Shown in pieces: positions 2,772 to 11,366 of a stretch of 64,000 bases of DNA. Position numbers and translations under genes: made by a program. Within the stretch, counting starts at the first letter, position 1, and the number at the start of each line of letters is the position of its first letter. The stretch is from NCBI RefSeq assembly GCF_004340785.1, contig NZ_SLXS01000005.1, positions 186,001-250,000 on the forward strand, given 5' to 3'. The notes beneath the pieces are model-generated. The model had not been told where the DNA came from. It searched no databases and saw only the letters and a program-made list of their open reading frames with translations. This DNA comes from Tumebacillus sp. BK434 (GTDB taxonomy: Bacteria > Bacillota > Bacilli > Tumebacillales > Tumebacillaceae).

Positions 2772-2806
2772 TTTTCAGCAACGCTTACAGACAGGAGTTT
2801 CATTTT

Positions 2807-2828
2807 GTTGTGTAGAATTTATTTATTA
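2807..2828 (+). repeat. AT-rich element, copy 1 (possible promoter/operator)
   Basis: GTTGTGTAGAATTTATTTATT shares 16 of 21 positions, without gaps, with the element at 3024-3044. Each copy lies 50-70 bases before a mini-peptide start codon. A duplicated promoter or regulator site is inferred; no clean -35/-10 pair is obvious here. Confidence 0.4.
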
Positions 2829-2874
2829 GAACATGATTAATTAATTCATTTCCCAAGGGGGGAGGTGACCAGAC

Positions 2875-2922
2875 ATGGAGCGCAACATCGCAGTCGGCGA
2901 CATCAACATCTGGATTTGCTAG
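2875..2922 (+). CDS. Mini-peptide 1 (15 aa, ends in Cys), candidate RiPP precursor
   Basis: ATG GAG ... TGC TAG encodes MERNIAVGDINIWIC. A very strong GGGAGGTGACC lies just before the ATG. It is the longest of five tiny ORFs placed head to tail before an EpiD-like Cys decarboxylase. All five end in aromatic-aliphatic-Cys-stop, here Trp-Ile-Cys, the kind of tail that EpiD accepts. Unlike the others it has its own hairpin terminator (2936-2965), so it may be a separate or more strongly expressed unit. No leader peptide can be separated from a core. Confidence 0.75.
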   Translation: MERNIAVGDINIWIC

Positions 2923-2935
2923 TTTTCAGGTCCGA

Positions 2936-2965
2936 AAAGCCTGGTTTTTTGCGAAGCCAGGCTTT
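2936..2965 (+). terminator. Hairpin terminator/attenuator after mini-peptide 1
   Basis: A 9-bp perfect stem AAAGCCTGG / CCAGGCTTT with a 12-nt loop, followed by AATTTTT. Confidence 0.7.
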
Positions 2966-3023
2966 AATTTTTCATTTTTGTACTTTTTCAAAATATTTTC
3001 ATTTTACGGTAGGATTTTGAGAA

Positions 3024-3044
3024 GTTGTGTGGTATTTATATCTA
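3024..3044 (+). repeat. AT-rich element, copy 2 (possible promoter/operator)
   Basis: GTTGTGTGGTATTTATATCTA, the partner of the element at 2807. A weak sigma-A-like pair TTGAGA (3017-3022) and TATCTA (3039-3044) with 16-bp spacing overlaps it. Confidence 0.4.
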
Positions 3045-3079
3045 CAGGAGCTTTAAATAAATATAAGGTGGTGACAAAC

Positions 3080-3106
3080 ATGCGTGATCCGGTCTATCTG
3101 TGCTAG
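3080..3106 (+). CDS. Mini-peptide 2 (8 aa, ends in Cys), candidate RiPP precursor
   Basis: Encodes MRDPVYLC, stop TAG, behind AAGGTGGTGACAAAC. It shares the tail pattern [Asp/Glu]-Pro-aliphatic-aromatic-aliphatic-Cys with mini-peptides 3 and 4. With eight codons it can hardly contain a leader, so the whole product may be the substrate. Confidence 0.72.
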   Translation: MRDPVYLC

Positions 3107-3145
3107 TTCCAACTTGGCCTAAAATCTGACTGGGAGGTGACAAAC

Positions 3146-3178
3146 ATGGCGTCCTACGAGCCGATCTTCATCTGCTAG
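3146..3178 (+). CDS. Mini-peptide 3 (10 aa, ends in Cys), candidate RiPP precursor
   Basis: Encodes MASYEPIFIC, stop TAG, behind GGGAGGTGACAAAC. Its last five residues PIFIC are identical to those of mini-peptide 4, and the last 18 bases including the stop (CCGATCTTCATCTGCTAG) are identical too, showing a recent duplication of the 3' end with divergent N-termini. Confidence 0.75.
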   Translation: MASYEPIFIC

Positions 3179-3222
3179 TTTGCGATATGTCGATAGATAC
3201 TTTGAAGCGGAGGTGACCACCA

Positions 3223-3258
3223 ATGATCGTAGTAACCGATCCGATCTTCATCTGCTAG
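3223..3258 (+). CDS. Mini-peptide 4 (11 aa, ends in Cys), candidate RiPP precursor
   Basis: Encodes MIVVTDPIFIC, stop TAG, behind GGAGGTGACCACCA. It has the same PIFIC tail as mini-peptide 3. The bases between mini-ORFs 3 and 4 are otherwise unlike, while ribosome binding site and C-terminal codons are kept, which is what selection for translation would give. Confidence 0.75.
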   Translation: MIVVTDPIFIC

Positions 3259-3306
3259 TTTCCTTGCTTCGATTCGATAAAATGACGCAGTTCGGAGGTG
3301 ACAAGC

Positions 3307-3333
3307 ATGGACGATCAAGTTTGGGTTTGCTAA
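3307..3333 (+). CDS. Mini-peptide 5 (8 aa, ends in Cys), candidate RiPP precursor
   Basis: Encodes MDDQVWVC, stop TAA, behind GGAGGTGACAAGC. The tail Trp-Val-Cys again fits an EpiD-type substrate. It is the last mini-ORF before the hairpin at 3361 and the decarboxylase start at 3414. Confidence 0.72.
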   Translation: MDDQVWVC

Positions 3334-3360
3334 TTGCTTGACTCATAACATGCATCTTTG

Positions 3361-3390
3361 AAAAGCCTGGATGCTGCCATCCGGGCTTTT
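3361..3390 (+). terminator. Attenuator hairpin between mini-peptides and decarboxylase
   Basis: AAAAGCCTGGAT pairs with ATCCGGGCTTTT (one G-U pair, 6-nt loop), followed by CTT. Located between precursor-like ORFs and enzyme genes, it would give excess peptide message over enzyme message by partial read-through, as in many lantibiotic operons. Confidence 0.7.
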
Positions 3391-3413
3391 CTTCCATACA
3401 CGGAGGGGATTTT

Positions 3414-3983
3414 ATGGACATCAAAAAAGTACTCGTCGGCATTTCCGGTTCCATCGGCGCCGTTGAAATTCAAAACTATCTGGCCGCGCTGCGCAGCACC
3501 TGGGGCGCCAGCGTCCACGTGATCATGACCGAAAGCGCGGCGGCGATGCTGCAAAGCAAAACGGTCAACTATTTTATCGATGGAAACGTATTTTTGAAGT
3601 CGACCGACTCGACCGACCAATTTAAAATTCCGCACATTCATCTCACTTCGTGGGCCGACCTGATGGTGATCATCCCGGCCAGCGCCAACATCATCGGCAA
3701 AGTCGCCAACGGCATCGCCGACGACCTGCTTTCCACCGCGGCGATGGCTGCGAAATGCCCGGTCGTCTTTTGCCCGAACATGAACGAACACATGCTCAAC
3801 CGCCCTGCGATGCAGCGCAACATGAAGCAGCTCAAAGAAGACGGTTATCTGATCATCGAACCGGGAGAAGAAGAAGCGATTCAGCTGTCGACCGGTCAGA
3901 AAGTACAAGGTGCGATGCCCGGCTTCAGCCAGTTCATCCCGCGCCTCGAAGAGACCTTGAGGGGGCAGGGCCTGTATGTCTAA
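3414..3983 (+). CDS. HFCD-family flavoprotein, EpiD-like peptidyl-cysteine decarboxylase
   Basis: A 189-residue flavin-dependent decarboxylase of the homo-oligomeric Cys decarboxylase family (EpiD, MrsD, Dfp/CoaC). The flavin-binding N-terminus reads VLVGISGSIGA. The catalytic His is in HIHLTSWAD (His74 by comparison with Dfp). The PASAN motif is at about 88-92 and the substrate-clamp motif PNMNEHM at about 121-127. All residues expected for activity are present. EpiD enzymes oxidatively decarboxylate a C-terminal peptidyl Cys to an ene-thiol. Five upstream mini-ORFs all end in such a Cys, so they are the likely substrates. It lacks a CoaB domain and is not beside coenzyme A genes, which argues against CoaC. 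The stop overlaps the MFS start. Confidence 0.88.
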   Translation: MDIKKVLVGISGSIGAVEIQNYLAALRSTWGASVHVIMTESAAAMLQSKTVNYFIDGNVFLKSTDSTDQFKIPHIHLTSWADLMVIIPASANIIGKVANGIADDLLSTAAMAAKCPVVFCPNMNEHMLNRPAMQRNMKQLKEDGYLIIEPGEEEAIQLSTGQKVQGAMPGFSQFIPRLEETLRGQGLYV

Positions 3984-5211
3984 CTTGCAGACACAGCCTG
4001 CACAACCTCAGCCAAAGCCTGGCAGCGCCCGTTTTTATTACCTGCTGTTCGGCCTTTTGTTTTCACGACTTGGCAACAACATCTATCTGCTCGCCCTGCC
4101 TTGGCTGGCTTATGACCTGACCGGGTCGTCCGTGCAGATGGGGACGGTGTTTGCGTTTGAGACCTTGCCGTTCATCCTCTTGTTGCCGCTTGGCGGTGTG
4201 ATCATCGACCGTTCTGATCGCCGTATGATCATGATGGTCTGCGATATAGCACGTATGGCACTGATCATTTCTCTTCCTCTGCTCTACTGGGCAGACCTTT
4301 TGACGATGGCGTATATCTTCGTGCTGTCGTTTGTGATTTCTTCGCTTTCCTTCTTCGTCGACATTTCGATGTCGGCGATCATTCCGAACCTCGTCAACAA
4401 AGAGCAGCTGATCAAGTCGAACGGCCAGCTGCAGCTCGTCGACAACACGGTCCGCCTGCTCGGTCCGATCCTCGCCGGCACCTTGCTGGCAGCGATCGGC
4501 ACGCCCTTGTCGATCTTCATCTGCGGCTTCTCCTACCTCGTGATGGCATTCTGCGTGCTTCTGATCGGCAAGATTCCCCGTCCCGACGCCAGCGGACAGG
4601 AGCCGAAGACGATCTGGCAGGACATGCGCGAAGGGTTCGCGTACGGCTGGAACCGCATCGACCTGCGCGCGATCGGTGCGATCTCGATGCTCGCCAACTT
4701 CGGCCTCGGCCTCGTGATGTCCACTTTGATCTTCTACCTGCGCGACACGCTCGGCACCAACGAGTGGCGCGTCGGCTTCGTCTTCTCTTCCGTCGGCATC
4801 TTCGGCATCATCGGGGCGCTGATCACGCCGCAACTGACCAAACGCTTTCGGCGCGGGTTTCTGCTCAGCTTCATGATGATCTTCGGCGGCGGCTTGGGCG
4901 GCGGACTGATCGCCCTGGTGCCGTACTGGATCGCCACCGGGCTTGGCCTTGGCATTCTGCTTGGCAGCGTGGTCGTGATGAACGTGATCCTGAACGCCTA
5001 CAAGCAAGGCAACATCGACAACCAGATGTTCGGCCGTGTCGAAGGCGCGATCACCTCGATCTCCAACTGCTGCATTCCGCTGGCCGGTGTAGTCGGCGGG
5101 ATCACGATCGGTCTCAGCTCCGGCTCGGTGATCACCTACCTGCTCGCCACGGCGATGATCGTCGGCTCAGGTCTGATTTCTTTCTTCACCCCATTACGCA
5201 AGATCGCATAG
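3976..5211 (+). CDS. MFS transporter, probable peptide or product exporter
   Basis: A 411-residue major facilitator with about 12 hydrophobic segments. It has the loop motif GGVIIDRSDRRMIM after TM2 and resembles the EntS/MFS_3 group of drug and siderophore exporters. A Pro/Gln-rich tail precedes TM1. The ATG at 3976 overlaps the decarboxylase stop by 8 bases, so the two are translationally coupled. In this setting it most likely exports the modified mini-peptides and gives self-protection. That role is inferred from position only. Confidence 0.85.
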   Translation: MSNLQTQPAQPQPKPGSARFYYLLFGLLFSRLGNNIYLLALPWLAYDLTGSSVQMGTVFAFETLPFILLLPLGGVIIDRSDRRMIMMVCDIARMALIISLPLLYWADLLTMAYIFVLSFVISSLSFFVDISMSAIIPNLVNKEQLIKSNGQLQLVDNTVRLLGPILAGTLLAAIGTPLSIFICGFSYLVMAFCVLLIGKIPRPDASGQEPKTIWQDMREGFAYGWNRIDLRAIGAISMLANFGLGLVMSTLIFYLRDTLGTNEWRVGFVFSSVGIFGIIGALITPQLTKRFRRGFLLSFMMIFGGGLGGGLIALVPYWIATGLGLGILLGSVVVMNVILNAYKQGNIDNQMFGRVEGAITSISNCCIPLAGVVGGITIGLSSGSVITYLLATAMIVGSGLISFFTPLRKIA

Positions 5212-5223
5212 GAGGTACGCTGC

Positions 5224-7095
5224 ATGAACGTGATGCTGGATCAAATCATCTCGACCGAAGTTTCCGCCGCCGTCAACGCGCTGTTTGCAGGCAGGTCGTC
5301 CGGCAAGACCATCTGGGTCGAAAATGGACAGCCGTCCGATCTCGACGCTGTGTTTGCCGAATTTGCCGGCATGGACGGCGTATTTTTCCGCACCACCCTG
5401 CCGCTGCTCGACCGCAACGTGTTTGGCCCGATCCGCCAGCTGCTGCAACAGACGCGGGCAATCTGGTCGCAATGGGAGTGGGTTGAGCAGGACTATTTCC
5501 GCGAAGTGAACGGCCTGTTTCCCAACACGTACGAAGGCAAGCAAAGCGTCTTTCACGTCTCTTATTCGTGGTCGGAACTGCGCTTGAACCGCGACATCCA
5601 GTGGGGCTTCCGGCTGATGCATTTCGCCGCGCTCGTGCTCAAAGAGCTGGCCCAAGTGAAGCCGCTGGTCATCGCGATCCACGACGTGCAGCATGCCGAC
5701 CGCCTCAGCCTGCAGACTCTGTACCATCTGCTGCACAACCTGAAAGCGGACGGCATCGTGCTGATCCTGCAAAAAGGCACGTATGACCATGACGGCCGCC
5801 CGGTCACCTCCGACACCGGCCAGTCGATCGAAAAACTGCTCTGTGTGATCGCCGACGCGCTGCAGCCGCTGCGACTGATCGGTTCGAAGACGGCGCCTGT
5901 ACCCGCACCGGCATTGGCGCTGGACGGCGATCCGCCTGTCGACCACATCCGCGCGATGATCGGCGAGCTGCAAAACGGCTTCTGGGATGCAGAAGCGATC
6001 AAGAAAAAGCTCGACGGCGTGATGTCGGTCTACAGCCTCGACAACGTGCTGACGCTCGGCGATGCGGTGCTCGCCCACCTGCCGGAGCTGTCTGCCGAAG
6101 ACGAGCGCGCGATCCGCTTCCACGTCTGGCGCAAAAAGGGCGTCGCCCTCGCGTTTATGGAGATGTATCCGGAAGCGATCCACGCCTTTACGCTGATGCA
6201 CGACTACGCCGGCAACATGGCCGACCGCACCAAAGCGTATCACCTGCTCGCCCTCTGCTACGGCAAGCGCGTCGGGCGCTGGGACATCGCCAAGCAGTTC
6301 CTGCATGAAGGCCTGCGCATCACCGAGGGGCGCAGCGACTTCGACACGGTGTATGAGCGCTGCTGGCTGTACAACTTCCTCGCCTACGTCACCTACCTGC
6401 ATGATCGCGACATCCCGCTGGCGCTCGAATATGCCAACTCGGCGTACGAAGGCATCAAGCCGTTCTCGCACATGACCAAAGGCAACGTCATGAAAGAGCT
6501 GGAAGATCCGAAACTGCCGCTCCGCCTGTTTTACAACCTGTCGATCAACATCTCCTACCTGCATTACTTTGCCAAAGACTACGAGGCGGCAAAAGACCTC
6601 TGGCAAAATACGGTCGGCGAGTCGGTCAAAGACATTCCGGACATCTTCAAAAAAGAGTTCTTCTACTTCGACGGCAACATCCTGAACCGCCTAGGCGAGT
6701 ATGAAGACGCCGTCACCGCCTACCAGCGCACCTACGAGATCTGCGTCACGCACGCTGACTCGTTTAACGCCGAGATCGCACTTCGCCCGCTGGCGAGCAC
6801 TTATTTCCAGATGGAGCGCTACGAAGACGCGCTGCACTGGTATGAGCGCATCTTGCAGTTGAAGCGCGAAACGGGCGATCTGCGCCTCACCTCGACCTAC
6901 CAGTCGATCATCCTCTGCCACCTCAAGCTCGGCCATGTGGAGCTGGCGCAGAGCGTGTTCCAAGAGGCGCAAGAGCTGCTCCCGCCGCGCTTCGCCGAGC
7001 TGTTCGTCAAAGGAACGTTGGCCGCCCACGCCGCCGAATTCCTCGAGTACGGCCCGTACATCATCAACCAGTCGATCACGCAGATGATCATCTAA
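5224..7095 (+). CDS. P-loop/TPR protein of the mini-peptide cluster, function unknown
   Basis: A 623-residue cytosolic protein behind AGGAGG, 12 bases after the MFS stop. The N-terminal third looks like a reduced STAND/AAA-type ATPase: AGRSSGKT (residues 22-29) fits the P-loop pattern [AG]x4GK[ST], and VIAIHDVQHADRLSL resembles the Walker B of MalT-like ATPases (hDDhHWAD). From about residue 290 on it is built of helical TPR-like repeats (AIHAFTLMHDYAG, EDAVTAYQRTYEI, EDALHWYERILQL). There is no DNA-binding domain at either end. It could be a chaperone-like partner that holds peptides, or a regulator. I cannot name the function. Confidence 0.65.
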   Translation: MNVMLDQIISTEVSAAVNALFAGRSSGKTIWVENGQPSDLDAVFAEFAGMDGVFFRTTLPLLDRNVFGPIRQLLQQTRAIWSQWEWVEQDYFREVNGLFPNTYEGKQSVFHVSYSWSELRLNRDIQWGFRLMHFAALVLKELAQVKPLVIAIHDVQHADRLSLQTLYHLLHNLKADGIVLILQKGTYDHDGRPVTSDTGQSIEKLLCVIADALQPLRLIGSKTAPVPAPALALDGDPPVDHIRAMIGELQNGFWDAEAIKKKLDGVMSVYSLDNVLTLGDAVLAHLPELSAEDERAIRFHVWRKKGVALAFMEMYPEAIHAFTLMHDYAGNMADRTKAYHLLALCYGKRVGRWDIAKQFLHEGLRITEGRSDFDTVYERCWLYNFLAYVTYLHDRDIPLALEYANSAYEGIKPFSHMTKGNVMKELEDPKLPLRLFYNLSINISYLHYFAKDYEAAKDLWQNTVGESVKDIPDIFKKEFFYFDGNILNRLGEYEDAVTAYQRTYEICVTHADSFNAEIALRPLASTYFQMERYEDALHWYERILQLKRETGDLRLTSTYQSIILCHLKLGHVELAQSVFQEAQELLPPRFAELFVKGTLAAHAAEFLEYGPYIINQSITQMII

Positions 7096-8709: not shown

Positions 8710-10140
8710 CTAGTTAGAAACGCTGTTTTCTCCCTGATGCATCTCGATATCCTTTTGCAGCACCCGCTCCAGCAAGAACGGCGGGCGCTTGGAATTCGCT
8801 TCGTTTTTATTGAGAACGGCGCCGAGGATCTTGGCGCTTACCTGGCGCAGGCCGGCTACGGCGGTGGCGGCGGCCTCGCGGGCGACTTTGCCGCTCTTGA
8901 TGACGAACAGCACGCCGTCCGCATGGCGGGCCAAAGCGTTTGGCAGCAGCGAAGAGTTCATCGATCCGCTGTCGATCAGGATGATGTCGTAACGGTCGCG
9001 CAAGACCGGCATCACGTCTGTTAGGCGCCCTTCTGCCACCGAGCGCAGCGCCTGCAGCGAGGCCCGGCCCAGCGGCAAAACATCAAGGCCTGCGATCACC
9101 GACTGGCGGATCGTCTCGTCGAGCTCTGCCGCTCCGAGCAGCAGATCGCACAAGCCCGCCTCTCCCCCGCCCGGCGCAAGGCCGTGCAAGACCGGCTGCT
9201 CCGCATTGGCGTCGAGCAGCAGCACGGAGTGCCCATGTTGCGCCATCAGGATGCCAAGGTGGGTCAAGATCGTCGTTTTGCCTTCCTTGTCGTGCGTCGA
9301 GGTGATGACGATCGTGCGCACATCTTCCATCGTCAGCACCGGCAGCAGGTTGCGGTACAGATGCTGATAGCCATCCAGCACGCGACGGTTGCGCTTCGTC
9401 GGGTTCAACTTCAGCTGCGGCAGTTCGCTTGCTGCTGCGACATCTTGTTTCAGCCCCCACCAGCGCCGCTTCGGCGACCACGTGCCGATCTCGCCGATCG
9501 TCGCCAGCCCGGTCTCAAACTTGATCTCCTCGCGGCTCTTCATCGTCGGATCGAGGTATTCCCGCACACCAAACGCGCCGATCGCCGCCATCGTCGACAA
9601 GATCAGAGCGATCGCCACGTTCATCGTTACATTGGGAGCCGTTTTCGAAGACGTCTGCATCGTCGCCCGATCGACGACGACCACATTGTCGACCTGCATC
9701 AGCTGTCCGATCTTCAGCGTAAACACGCGGGCCAGTTCATTGGCGATCACGATCGCCGCTTCCCGATCCGGATAGGTGACGGTGATCGTGAAGATCGACG
9801 AGTCGGTGTTGTTGACGATCTTGATCTTCGTGCCCAGCTCATCGGGCGACATCTGCAGGTGCAACTTGTCGATCACCTCTTGCAGCACGAGATGGCTTTT
9901 GATGATCTCATTGTAGGTCTTGATCACCTTCTGGTTGGTCAACACTTCATTGAGCAGATATTCGGCCGAGATCGTCGGGTCGGTGTTGACGAGGAGCGCC
10001 GTCGTCGCCTTGTACGTCGGCGTCACCACGAACATGCTCAGGTAGGTCGAGGTGCCGACCGCAAAGCCGACGATCAAAACCAACAAGCCGAGGCGTTTCT
10101 TAACGGCATTGTAGTACTTTTTCCACAGATAGCCTAACAT
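8710..10140 (-). CDS. Wzz chain-length domain fused to BY-kinase-like ATPase (Wzc/CpsCD type)
   Basis: A 476-residue fusion. The N-terminal Wzz part has two membrane segments (about 17-37 and 170-190) around an extracellular coiled region. The C-terminal CpsD/Wzc-like ATPase starts near residue 265 with a Walker A variant STHDKEGKTT, then VLLLDANAEQP (A') and DIILIDSGS (B). Such proteins steer the length and export of capsular or exopolysaccharides. The C-terminus has no Tyr cluster, the normal autophosphorylation site, so kinase control may be lost or may use another residue. It is preceded at 15 bases by the gene 10156-11034, its likely operon partner. Confidence 0.85.
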   Translation of the reverse strand: MLGYLWKKYYNAVKKRLGLLVLIVGFAVGTSTYLSMFVVTPTYKATTALLVNTDPTISAEYLLNEVLTNQKVIKTYNEIIKSHLVLQEVIDKLHLQMSPDELGTKIKIVNNTDSSIFTITVTYPDREAAIVIANELARVFTLKIGQLMQVDNVVVVDRATMQTSSKTAPNVTMNVAIALILSTMAAIGAFGVREYLDPTMKSREEIKFETGLATIGEIGTWSPKRRWWGLKQDVAAASELPQLKLNPTKRNRRVLDGYQHLYRNLLPVLTMEDVRTIVITSTHDKEGKTTILTHLGILMAQHGHSVLLLDANAEQPVLHGLAPGGGEAGLCDLLLGAAELDETIRQSVIAGLDVLPLGRASLQALRSVAEGRLTDVMPVLRDRYDIILIDSGSMNSSLLPNALARHADGVLFVIKSGKVAREAAATAVAGLRQVSAKILGAVLNKNEANSKRPPFLLERVLQKDIEMHQGENSVSN

Positions 10141-11273: not shown

Positions 11274-11366
11274 CACACGAAATGGCAAACCGCTCGAAAG
11301 GGCGGGACGCAAAGCTGCGGGCCTACAGCGGGTGACCACTCGCCATGGCAGCCGGGTTGCCGAAGG
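11274..11366 (+). ncRNA. Cyclic di-GMP-I (GEMM) riboswitch
   Basis: It has the conserved GEMM-I layout in order: GGCAAACC, a GNRA-like hairpin (CGCTCGAAAGGGCG), the core GACGCAAAGC, the P1b arm with GCGGGCCTACAGC, and the tetraloop receptor side GGCAGCCGGGTTGCCG, which pairs with GGCAAACC. Such riboswitches bind c-di-GMP and control motility, adhesion and matrix genes. It ends 11 bases before the GTG start of the downstream exported protein, so control of translation or of termination is possible. No clear intrinsic terminator is seen between it and the gene. Confidence 0.92.

Follow-up and report, generated by a model that had tools for sequence, protein, structure and literature searches.

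The 64,000-nt stretch of DNA analysed here, from Tumebacillus sp. BK434 (contig NZ_SLXS01000005.1, positions 186,001 to 250,000, forward strand; "the window"), contains a compact gene block, which we refer to as locus A. In this block, five tiny open reading frames (ORFs), each ending in an aromatic residue, an aliphatic residue and cysteine, precede genes for an HFCD-family flavoprotein and a major facilitator superfamily (MFS) transporter. Here, we describe computational evidence that makes it probable that the mini-peptides are substrates of the flavoprotein in a leaderless export system, which partly supports an earlier note, made from the sequence of the window, that had proposed decarboxylation and export of whole 8–15-residue peptides. 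In the proposed pathway, short mRNAs would carry four to six tiny genes, each yielding a finished peptide of 8–15 residues with no cleavable leader, so that no protease would be needed. The HFCD protein would bind the C-terminal aromatic-aliphatic-Cys tripeptide and oxidatively decarboxylate the terminal cysteine to an enethiol, with loss of CO2 and 2 H. The product of the overlapping MFS gene would export the modified peptide, perhaps as a secreted signal or antagonist peptide, and a protein with tetratricopeptide repeats (TPR), encoded next, probably binds the peptide or the enethiol, to carry, protect or sense it. Lastly, a hairpin between array and enzyme gene would keep substrate mRNA above enzyme mRNA, as in microcin C.

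We compared the window genome with those of Tumebacillus avium (G006) and one further Tumebacillus (G005), i.e., three genomes of one genus. The genes of locus A in the window are as follows.

2875..2922, + strand: mini-ORF 1, MERNIAVGDINIWIC, with orthologues in the two other genomes
3080..3106, + strand: mini-ORF 2, MRDPVYLC, conserved in the genus
3146..3178, + strand: mini-ORF 3, MASYEPIFIC, conserved in the genus
3223..3258, + strand: mini-ORF 4, MIVVTDPIFIC, with two copies in T. avium and none in G005
3307..3333, + strand: mini-ORF 5, MDDQVWVC, conserved in the genus
3414..3983, + strand: HFCD flavoprotein of 189 aa, candidate peptidyl-cysteine decarboxylase (PF02441, E 1e-31)
3976..5211, + strand: MFS transporter, candidate exporter, overlapping the HFCD gene by 8 nt (nearest NCBIfam model TIGR00900/2A0121, below cut-off)
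5224..7095, + strand: TPR protein of 623 aa (Pfam TPR), last gene of the conserved block and in the same place in the three genomes

Direct reading and a script both recover the mini-ORFs of 15, 8, 10, 11 and 8 codons that the earlier note had listed, with their strong ribosome-binding sites and [WYF][ILV]C ends. The Shine-Dalgarno (SD) sequence is GGAGGTGAC in four of the five and GGTGGTGAC at mini-ORF 2. Under a strict SD rule, applied to mini-ORFs of 6–20 codons on both strands, the window holds eight mini-ORFs, and five of these make up the array; the other three are an out-of-frame reading over mini-ORF 2, a GTG-started ORF near 9314 that is likewise Cys-ended (RYRC), and one ORF on the minus strand. 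The same rule yielded 21 mini-ORFs, none of them Cys-ended, in 72 non-overlapping control loci out of 90 (432,020 bases); a first count over partly overlapping loci had given 12 in 313,676 bases, again with none Cys-ended. When positions 2800–3413 were resampled under a Markov-1 model (n = 20,000), a single [WYF][ILV]C mini-ORF arose in one resampled sequence, and two or more in none. With a looser SD rule (5–40 codons), the window contains 113 mini-ORFs, of which 10 are Cys-ended, half of them being the array. A chance origin of the mini-ORFs is rejected by the control-locus counts and the resampling.

The array and the genes behind it are conserved in the genus. The block of T. avium AR23208 has an HFCD protein 97% identical to that of the window and six mini-ORFs; the block of G005 has one that is 91% identical and four mini-ORFs, the last of which is GTG-started. 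The earlier note had made its idea depend on conservation of the mini-ORFs and their terminal cysteine, and the idea survived comparison with these two genomes: the aromatic-aliphatic-Cys end is present in all 15 mini-ORFs, while the individual letters vary within their class (WIC to YLC, YLC to FVC, FIC to FLC). In a codon test, pairs were aligned from the C-terminal end, the start codon was excluded, and the expectation assumed an equal number of base changes placed at random. Five pairs from the window and T. avium show four residue differences against 11.1 expected (P 5e-5), and four pairs from the window and G005 show 11 against 17.8 (P 4e-4), P values that are rough, since codon and transition bias are not part of the null. 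The test did not include MVVSDPIFLC, the second copy of mini-ORF 4 in T. avium, which has two residue differences. By this measure, the mini-ORF peptides are under purifying selection. Gene content beyond the TPR gene differs among the three genomes, and this marks the limit of the block on that side. At the other end, a fabI-like gene lies upstream of the block in all three genomes, with a 77-aa ORF in between in two of them.

The flavoprotein with active-site motifs behind the mini-ORFs, and the MFS gene overlapping it, are as the earlier note had described them. The protein matches PF02441, a match common to CoaC and so not specific for peptide decarboxylases, and aligned with 30 relatives it carries HIHL, PASAN and PNMN. 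We take the catalytic His, PASAN and PxMN to be the motifs of HFCD peptidyl-cysteine decarboxylases of the EpiD/MrsD type. Among solved structures, MrsD is the best match by sequence (E 2.7e-33), followed by 7cfu (7e-33) and 6jls (2e-27), with Mycobacterium smegmatis CoaBC (2e-20) and EpiD (2e-17) ranking lower. In an alignment of 31 HFCD proteins, the motif LACG is present in 16/16 rows on the CoaBC side (13 of CoaBC length and three shorter, CoaBC-like). The three Tumebacillus proteins read LSTG at this site, i.e., they lack the CoaBC cysteine; the site reads STG or ATG in five HFCD proteins associated with radical SAM genes in a sister genus and ATG in MrsD, and the residues differ again in the rows from Priestia, Streptomyces and a genome of the same phylum (G697). 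The clamp cysteine of CoaC reduces the enethiol, and its absence leaves the oxidised enethiol. A branch with 100/100 support in a tree of 35 rows separates the CoaBC side (17 rows) from the rest (18 rows, some of them functionally undefined), and the Tumebacillus trio lies outside the CoaBC clade. A separate CoaBC-length homologue is encoded elsewhere in the window genome. The alternative that the flavoprotein is merely a CoaC, raised in the earlier note itself, is disfavoured by this separate homologue, by the missing LACG cysteine and by the position in the tree.

EpiD accepts peptides that end in a hydrophobic or aromatic residue, then a small or aliphatic residue, then cysteine, and all 15 mini-ORF ends fit this rule. 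Ser and Thr are absent from eight of the 15 peptides, and none of the 15 has an inner cysteine; those eight therefore cannot close aminovinylcysteine (AviCys) or lanthionine rings, and decarboxylation alone fits them. If the HFCD protein acts on these peptides, its product would be a linear enethiol, its thioaldehyde tautomer, a disulfide or, on chemical reasoning, a C-terminal amide derived by hydrolysis. Metal chelation by the enethiols was considered as a function. The term "leaderless" from the earlier note holds in so far as the peptides have only 8–15 residues, with no division into leader and core; it is qualified by the start of mini-ORF 1, MERN, which recurs in two other mini-gene families (see below), so that MERN may serve as a tag of minimal size.

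The TPR gene, which the earlier note did not include, is the fourth component of the block in 3/3 genomes. Its protein gave no helix-turn-helix (HTH) match in the window, and its profile matches NprR weakly (E 3.7e-4) among many TPR proteins, many of them better-scoring. The predicted structure is usable in its TPR part only, and Foldseek shows that this part resembles TPR domains known to bind peptides (LGN, kinesin light chain). Relatives of the protein occur in 6/398 class genomes, three of which are Tumebacillus. In one of the others (G053; 25% identity over 388 residues), the relative adjoins four Lant_dehydr_N proteins, and in a second (G057) it sits among genes for a peptidase M16, an aminotransferase, a methyltransferase and an FMN reductase; the third is G310. 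The G053 and G057 neighbourhoods suggest that such TPR proteins may keep company with peptide-modifying genes, and the TPR protein of locus A may protect or carry the peptide. The G053 locus (L039), with its four large Lant_dehydr_N proteins in a run, flanked by two TPR proteins and an FAD oxidase, is possibly an unusual peptide-modifying cluster in its own right.

Two strong hairpins, absent from the earlier note, divide the mini-ORF region, and promoter-like sites precede mini-ORFs 1 and 2.

2793..2818, + strand: promoter-like site AGGAGTT-N15-GAAT (SigH-like) before mini-ORF 1, with counterparts at this position in T. avium and G005
2936..2965, + strand: T1, intrinsic terminator after mini-ORF 1, with a stem and a T-rich tail
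3011..3035, + strand: second promoter-like site, AGGATTT-N14-GTAT, before mini-ORF 2, in the same place in T. avium
3360..3391, + strand: T2, 14-bp hairpin with a weak U-tract between the array and the HFCD gene, present in all three genomes

Hairpins of differing sequence occupy the T1 position in T. avium and G005. Mini-ORF 1 is probably a transcription unit of its own, which would give the system two such units. T2 probably allows partial read-through or processing, and the HFCD, MFS and TPR genes are probably transcribed by leakage past it. With T1 and a second promoter-like site behind it, mini-ORF 1 can hardly be a cis leader of the enzyme, and this layout disfavours cis-acting leader peptides. 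The promoter pattern was built on the SigH consensus. In its relaxed form, it has two matches in the 64 kb window (0.75 expected), both at locus A; the same pattern finds both sites in T. avium, plus one elsewhere in that sequence, and one of the two in G005, where the counterpart of the second site is a variant (AGGAATC) outside the pattern. We treat the SigH-like sites as a lead only, because the strict pattern has no match in the window, the relaxation was post hoc, and the motif was not found at the two further arrays described below.

Indeed, locus A is not the only mini-gene array in these genomes. A DNA search with the array region of locus A gave weak repeated matches that led to locus B, and a third locus, C, carries an array together with another enzyme.

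L093:7169-8007 (G000:C3, window genome), L094:6929-6457 and L111:4161-5990: locus B, second mini-gene array, tandem mini-genes in the three Tumebacillus genomes
L109:5100-8591, L110:5325-8726 and L112:7114-3648: locus C, third mini-gene locus, with array, hairpin, PF14907 nucleotidyltransferase and overlapping MFS gene

At locus B, nine mini-genes are readable in the window genome, around a 98-base run of N; the counts for T. avium and G005 are six and 19. Most of the peptides read MERN[IV]KIT[IV]TIEF or MERNGVKITVTIEF, and the arrays are divergent from an MFS gene in the window genome and T. avium, while the MFS gene of G005 is decayed. No evident modifying enzyme was found among the part of the neighbours scanned, where one radical-SAM-type protein is a spore photoproduct lyase. 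The locus B peptides alternate Ile/Val with polar residues, and self-assembling beta peptides were considered for them. Strong DNA matches to the locus B array occur in the three Tumebacillus of 14 order genomes, with a best match outside the genus at E 0.07.

At locus C, seven, six and six mini-genes encode peptides of 17–33 residues with repeated PxFIDIRK-like motifs inside them and near the C-terminus. The array is followed by a conserved hairpin, then by a PF14907 nucleotidyltransferase (E 1.3e-20), then by an overlapping MFS gene; genes for HTH-TPR regulators lie farther from the array. The nucleotidyltransferase was found in 3/338 genomes, all of them Tumebacillus. In the codon test, five aligned pairs show 19 residue differences against 33.7 expected, and no resampling gave a value as low. 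The MERN start is present in one mini-ORF per genome at locus A (mini-ORF 1 in the window), in 9/9, 6/6 and 16/19 mini-genes at locus B, and in 3/7, 3/6 and 1/6 at locus C. TIGR00900 is the best model, below cut-off, for the MFS proteins of all three loci in the window genome, and these are about 25–31% identical to one another.

The order of array, hairpin, enzyme and overlapping MFS gene thus occurs at two loci whose enzymes are unrelated and whose peptide motifs differ. To us, nothing else speaks as strongly for the peptides being products and not regulators. A broader reading would place all three loci in one genus-wide micro-gene family: arrays of 4–19 SD-equipped genes of 8–33 codons, many of them MERN-started, whose peptides would share a conserved motif modified by one cognate enzyme and be exported by a related MFS pump, with neither leader nor protease. 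The HFCD protein would act on the terminal [WYF][ILV]C and the PF14907 nucleotidyltransferase on the FIDIRK-like motif, and the HFCD branch would make free enethiols or C-terminal amides. We put this reading forward tentatively, judging its chances to be a little short of even.

Searches beyond the genus relied on protein and DNA likeness (HFCD, MFS and TPR proteins), by which arrays with unrelated enzymes may be missed. The earlier note had suggested searching other Bacilli for such arrays before HFCD genes; the three Tumebacillus genomes have them, and none other was found by HFCD, MFS, TPR or DNA likeness. HFCD proteins at E 1e-32 or better occur in 46/398 class genomes, none outside the genus above 47% identity, and the standalone HFCD proteins of other Bacilli were rejected as relatives of the system, with no Cys-ended array outside Tumebacillus among the 30 loci inspected. 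In a profile scan of 398 phylum genomes, a sample without G005 and G006, only G697 joins the window genome at E 1e-40 or better. With the MFS profile, 11/398 genomes reach E 1e-50 or better, and three of these are Tumebacillus; seven neighbourhoods of the eight matches outside the genus (best 48%, G292) contain no HFCD protein, TPR relative or array. Spread by phages or plasmids was considered and rejected: HFCD matches occur in 134 plasmid and 33 phage records, all under 60% identity. Many of the 30 plasmid matches listed are annotated as CoaBC, and the 15 phage matches listed bear no annotation; one Priestia plasmid HFCD is annotated within a LanB/LanC cluster. None of 28 viral stretches encodes a relative, and the TPR protein has no match in plasmids.

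Several HFCD genes outside the genus have neighbours of interest in themselves. All five standalone HFCD genes found in the sister genus adjoin a radical SAM gene, a setting like that of ribosomally synthesised and post-translationally modified peptides (RiPPs), and Pfam confirms the radical SAM neighbours in all five and in G697. These HFCD proteins are 32–45% identical to that of the window, but their loci differ in having radical SAM proteins, longer precursors where any is recognised, and no tandem Cys-ended mini-ORFs. In G697 (L066:6779-7589), a single 24-aa Cys-ended ORF with an SD sequence, MEWIQKPDAALDPPQHFDSNCHNC, lies between the radical SAM gene and the HFCD gene, a short Cys-ended precursor in another lineage; there is no array, and an MFS-like gene is nearby. 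At L015:2096 (G001:C1; the same region as L023), the ORF MEKMIDLAPTLDVLDGNLDDLLSLSDVDNENGNCHIC stands behind an MFS-HFCD pair and beside a radical SAM gene; it ends in CHIC, and the G697 ORF ends in CHNC. In the sister genus, a small protein of repeated TVPTQNTNNNVC units is encoded near genes for an HFCD protein and a radical SAM protein (L019:9371-9721). Within the window, a c-di-GMP-I riboswitch is predicted at 11274–11364 on the + strand (80.6 bits). For Tumebacillus flagellatus, PMC7268733 notes a lanthipeptide cluster of class I that has 10 precursors.

The nearest working model for locus A is microcin C, and the nearest enzyme family is that of the EpiD/MrsD decarboxylases. As outlined in PMC6495379, microcin C has a seven-codon gene, a terminator before mccB, a C-terminal modification and a pump in the cluster. 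Locus A has a mini-gene, a hairpin, a putative C-terminal modifier and a pump in the same order. However, microcin C has one mini-gene, a nucleotide added by dedicated enzymes and a known toxin, whereas locus A has four to six different mini-genes, an HFCD flavoprotein and a TPR protein. Locus A is not a member of the microcin C group, because no ThiF protein (an MccB-like adenylyltransferase) was found among the proteins scanned there; locus C has the PF14907 nucleotidyltransferase instead. With EpiD, MrsD, CypD and TvaF, locus A shares the HFCD family, the C-terminal cysteine and the absence of a CoaBC-type clamp cysteine, MrsD being the best solved match; in those systems, unlike here with peptides of 8–15 residues, the precursors are long and bear leaders, and dehydratases and cyclases take part. 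RiPPs are usually defined by a leader and a core, the leader being cleaved; the peptides of locus A have 8–15 residues in all, and in the window MERN stands on mini-ORF 1 only. AviCys RiPPs and lanthipeptides call for Ser/Thr in the peptide, which eight of the 15 lack, and for a dehydratase or cyclase in the cluster, which the seven neighbouring proteins scanned do not include, and so locus A is not one of them. Locus A resembles RRNPP systems in its short peptides and TPR protein, but the TPR protein of the window has no HTH match, the peptides have no signal peptides, and no HTH-TPR receptor is encoded with the peptide genes. In a literature search that left out most subscription papers, no title or abstract opening among those listed describes a leaderless HFCD system or a Tumebacillus mini-gene array.

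A number of results weigh against the proposal that the mini-peptides are HFCD substrates in a leaderless export system. The proposal draws on three genomes of one genus; no such cluster was found around relatives in 398 class or 398 phylum genomes, and a Cys-ended array accompanies HFCD genes of the class only in Tumebacillus among the 30 places inspected. The Tumebacillus trio forms a lineage of its own with no supported sister in the 35-row tree, which therefore gives it no place among known RiPP decarboxylases but only excludes it from CoaBC. Among curated NCBIfam models, the HFCD protein scores 152 bits with CoaBC (cut-off 219.7), 110 of 261 with CoaC and 25.6 with CypD (cut-off 215), and its highest identity outside the genus, 47%, is to the CoaBC of G007. 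Our confidence is slightly lower for two reasons: all that the tree establishes is a position outside CoaBC, and the curated models favour CoaBC. An AlphaFold model from a two-row alignment was unusable (pLDDT 38). Ile or Leu before the cysteine is the weaker option under the EpiD rule. Locus B, with no enzyme found and a decayed MFS gene in G005, indicates that arrays need not accompany an enzyme or a pump. Three LanC-like proteins are encoded elsewhere in the genome (G000:C4:155962, C2:717209 and C2:753747). Lastly, enethiols hydrolyse unless protected or captured, according to PMC12291118, which makes a free enethiol awkward as an end product.

This instability leads to a variant in which the enethiol hydrolyses, the cysteine is lost as a sacrificial residue, and the peptides leave the cell with a C-terminal amide (e.g., MRDPVYL-NH2). 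It is encouraged by the hydrolysis of unprotected enethiol intermediates that PMC12291118 reports and by the lack of a cyclising partner among the neighbours scanned; but the amide as hydrolysis product is a matter of chemical reasoning, the enethiol could be shielded by the TPR protein instead, and we judge this end product distinctly unlikely. The TPR protein also enters a reading that overlaps the leaderless export proposal and names its function, in which the peptides are exported signals for TPR-type receptors, as in RRNPP-like quorum sensing, and modification of the cysteine only tunes or protects them. The TPR gene in the block, with its weak NprR match and its likeness to peptide-binding TPR folds, is in keeping with this, as are the SigH-like sites at locus A and an HTH_3+TPR regulator near locus C (by Pfam in one genome, with look-alikes in the other two). 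Yet the TPR protein of the window has no HTH match, many TPR proteins outscore NprR, other genes separate the HTH-TPR genes from the locus C array, and neither locus B nor locus C has the promoter motif. Such signalling is a possibility that we hold to be somewhat unlikely.

Two further readings take the peptides out of the proposed pathway or add to their chemistry. The mini-ORFs could be cis-acting leader peptides, with ribosome stalling at the aromatic-aliphatic-Cys ends controlling a terminator before the HFCD and MFS genes, on the model of cysteine attenuation or antibiotic-inducible efflux genes. Short ORFs, strong SD sequences and a hairpin immediately upstream of the first structural gene suit this, and the MFS protein matches macrolide-efflux models, though far below the cut-offs. 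However, a terminator hairpin follows mini-ORF 1 in all three genomes and is itself followed by the second promoter-like site; T2 is intact in the minimum-energy fold of 3260–3400 (competing folds were sought only unsystematically), and mini-ORF 5 stops 26 nt upstream of it. In addition, four to six successive leaders would be unusual, the side-chain class is kept at the substrate end, and the peptide cores differ in the other arrays, which have another enzyme or none. Taken together, we find leader peptides quite improbable. Alternatively, the HFCD protein could cooperate with a lanthipeptide enzyme acting in trans to build AviCys rings on these peptides. HFCD proteins of this kind usually serve AviCys pathways, as stated in PMC11162475, and the three LanC-like proteins are in the genome. 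The earlier note's statement that lanthionine enzymes are lacking holds for the seven neighbouring proteins scanned, among which there is no Lan enzyme; it does not extend to the rest of the genome. With no Ser/Thr in eight of the 15 peptides and all of them too short for a usual leader, rings made in trans are extremely unlikely.

If the leaderless export proposal is true, RiPP-style chemistry would be carried out on complete 8–15-residue peptides straight off the ribosome and encoded in tandem gene arrays, a stripped-down new way of making modified peptides. The peptides would form a natural-product class that can be searched for and that one large published mining study skips by its design: in PMC11162475, the rule for Cys-ended peptides with PF02441 calls for 20–100 residues and T/S-X2-6-C, which excludes the 8–15-residue peptides of locus A. 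The flavoprotein would provide a decarboxylase tool that needs no leader, and the system would be a simple one in which to study how a modifying enzyme reads a C-terminal tripeptide. If the broader micro-gene family reading is also true, the genus would have a new route to amidated bacterial peptides.

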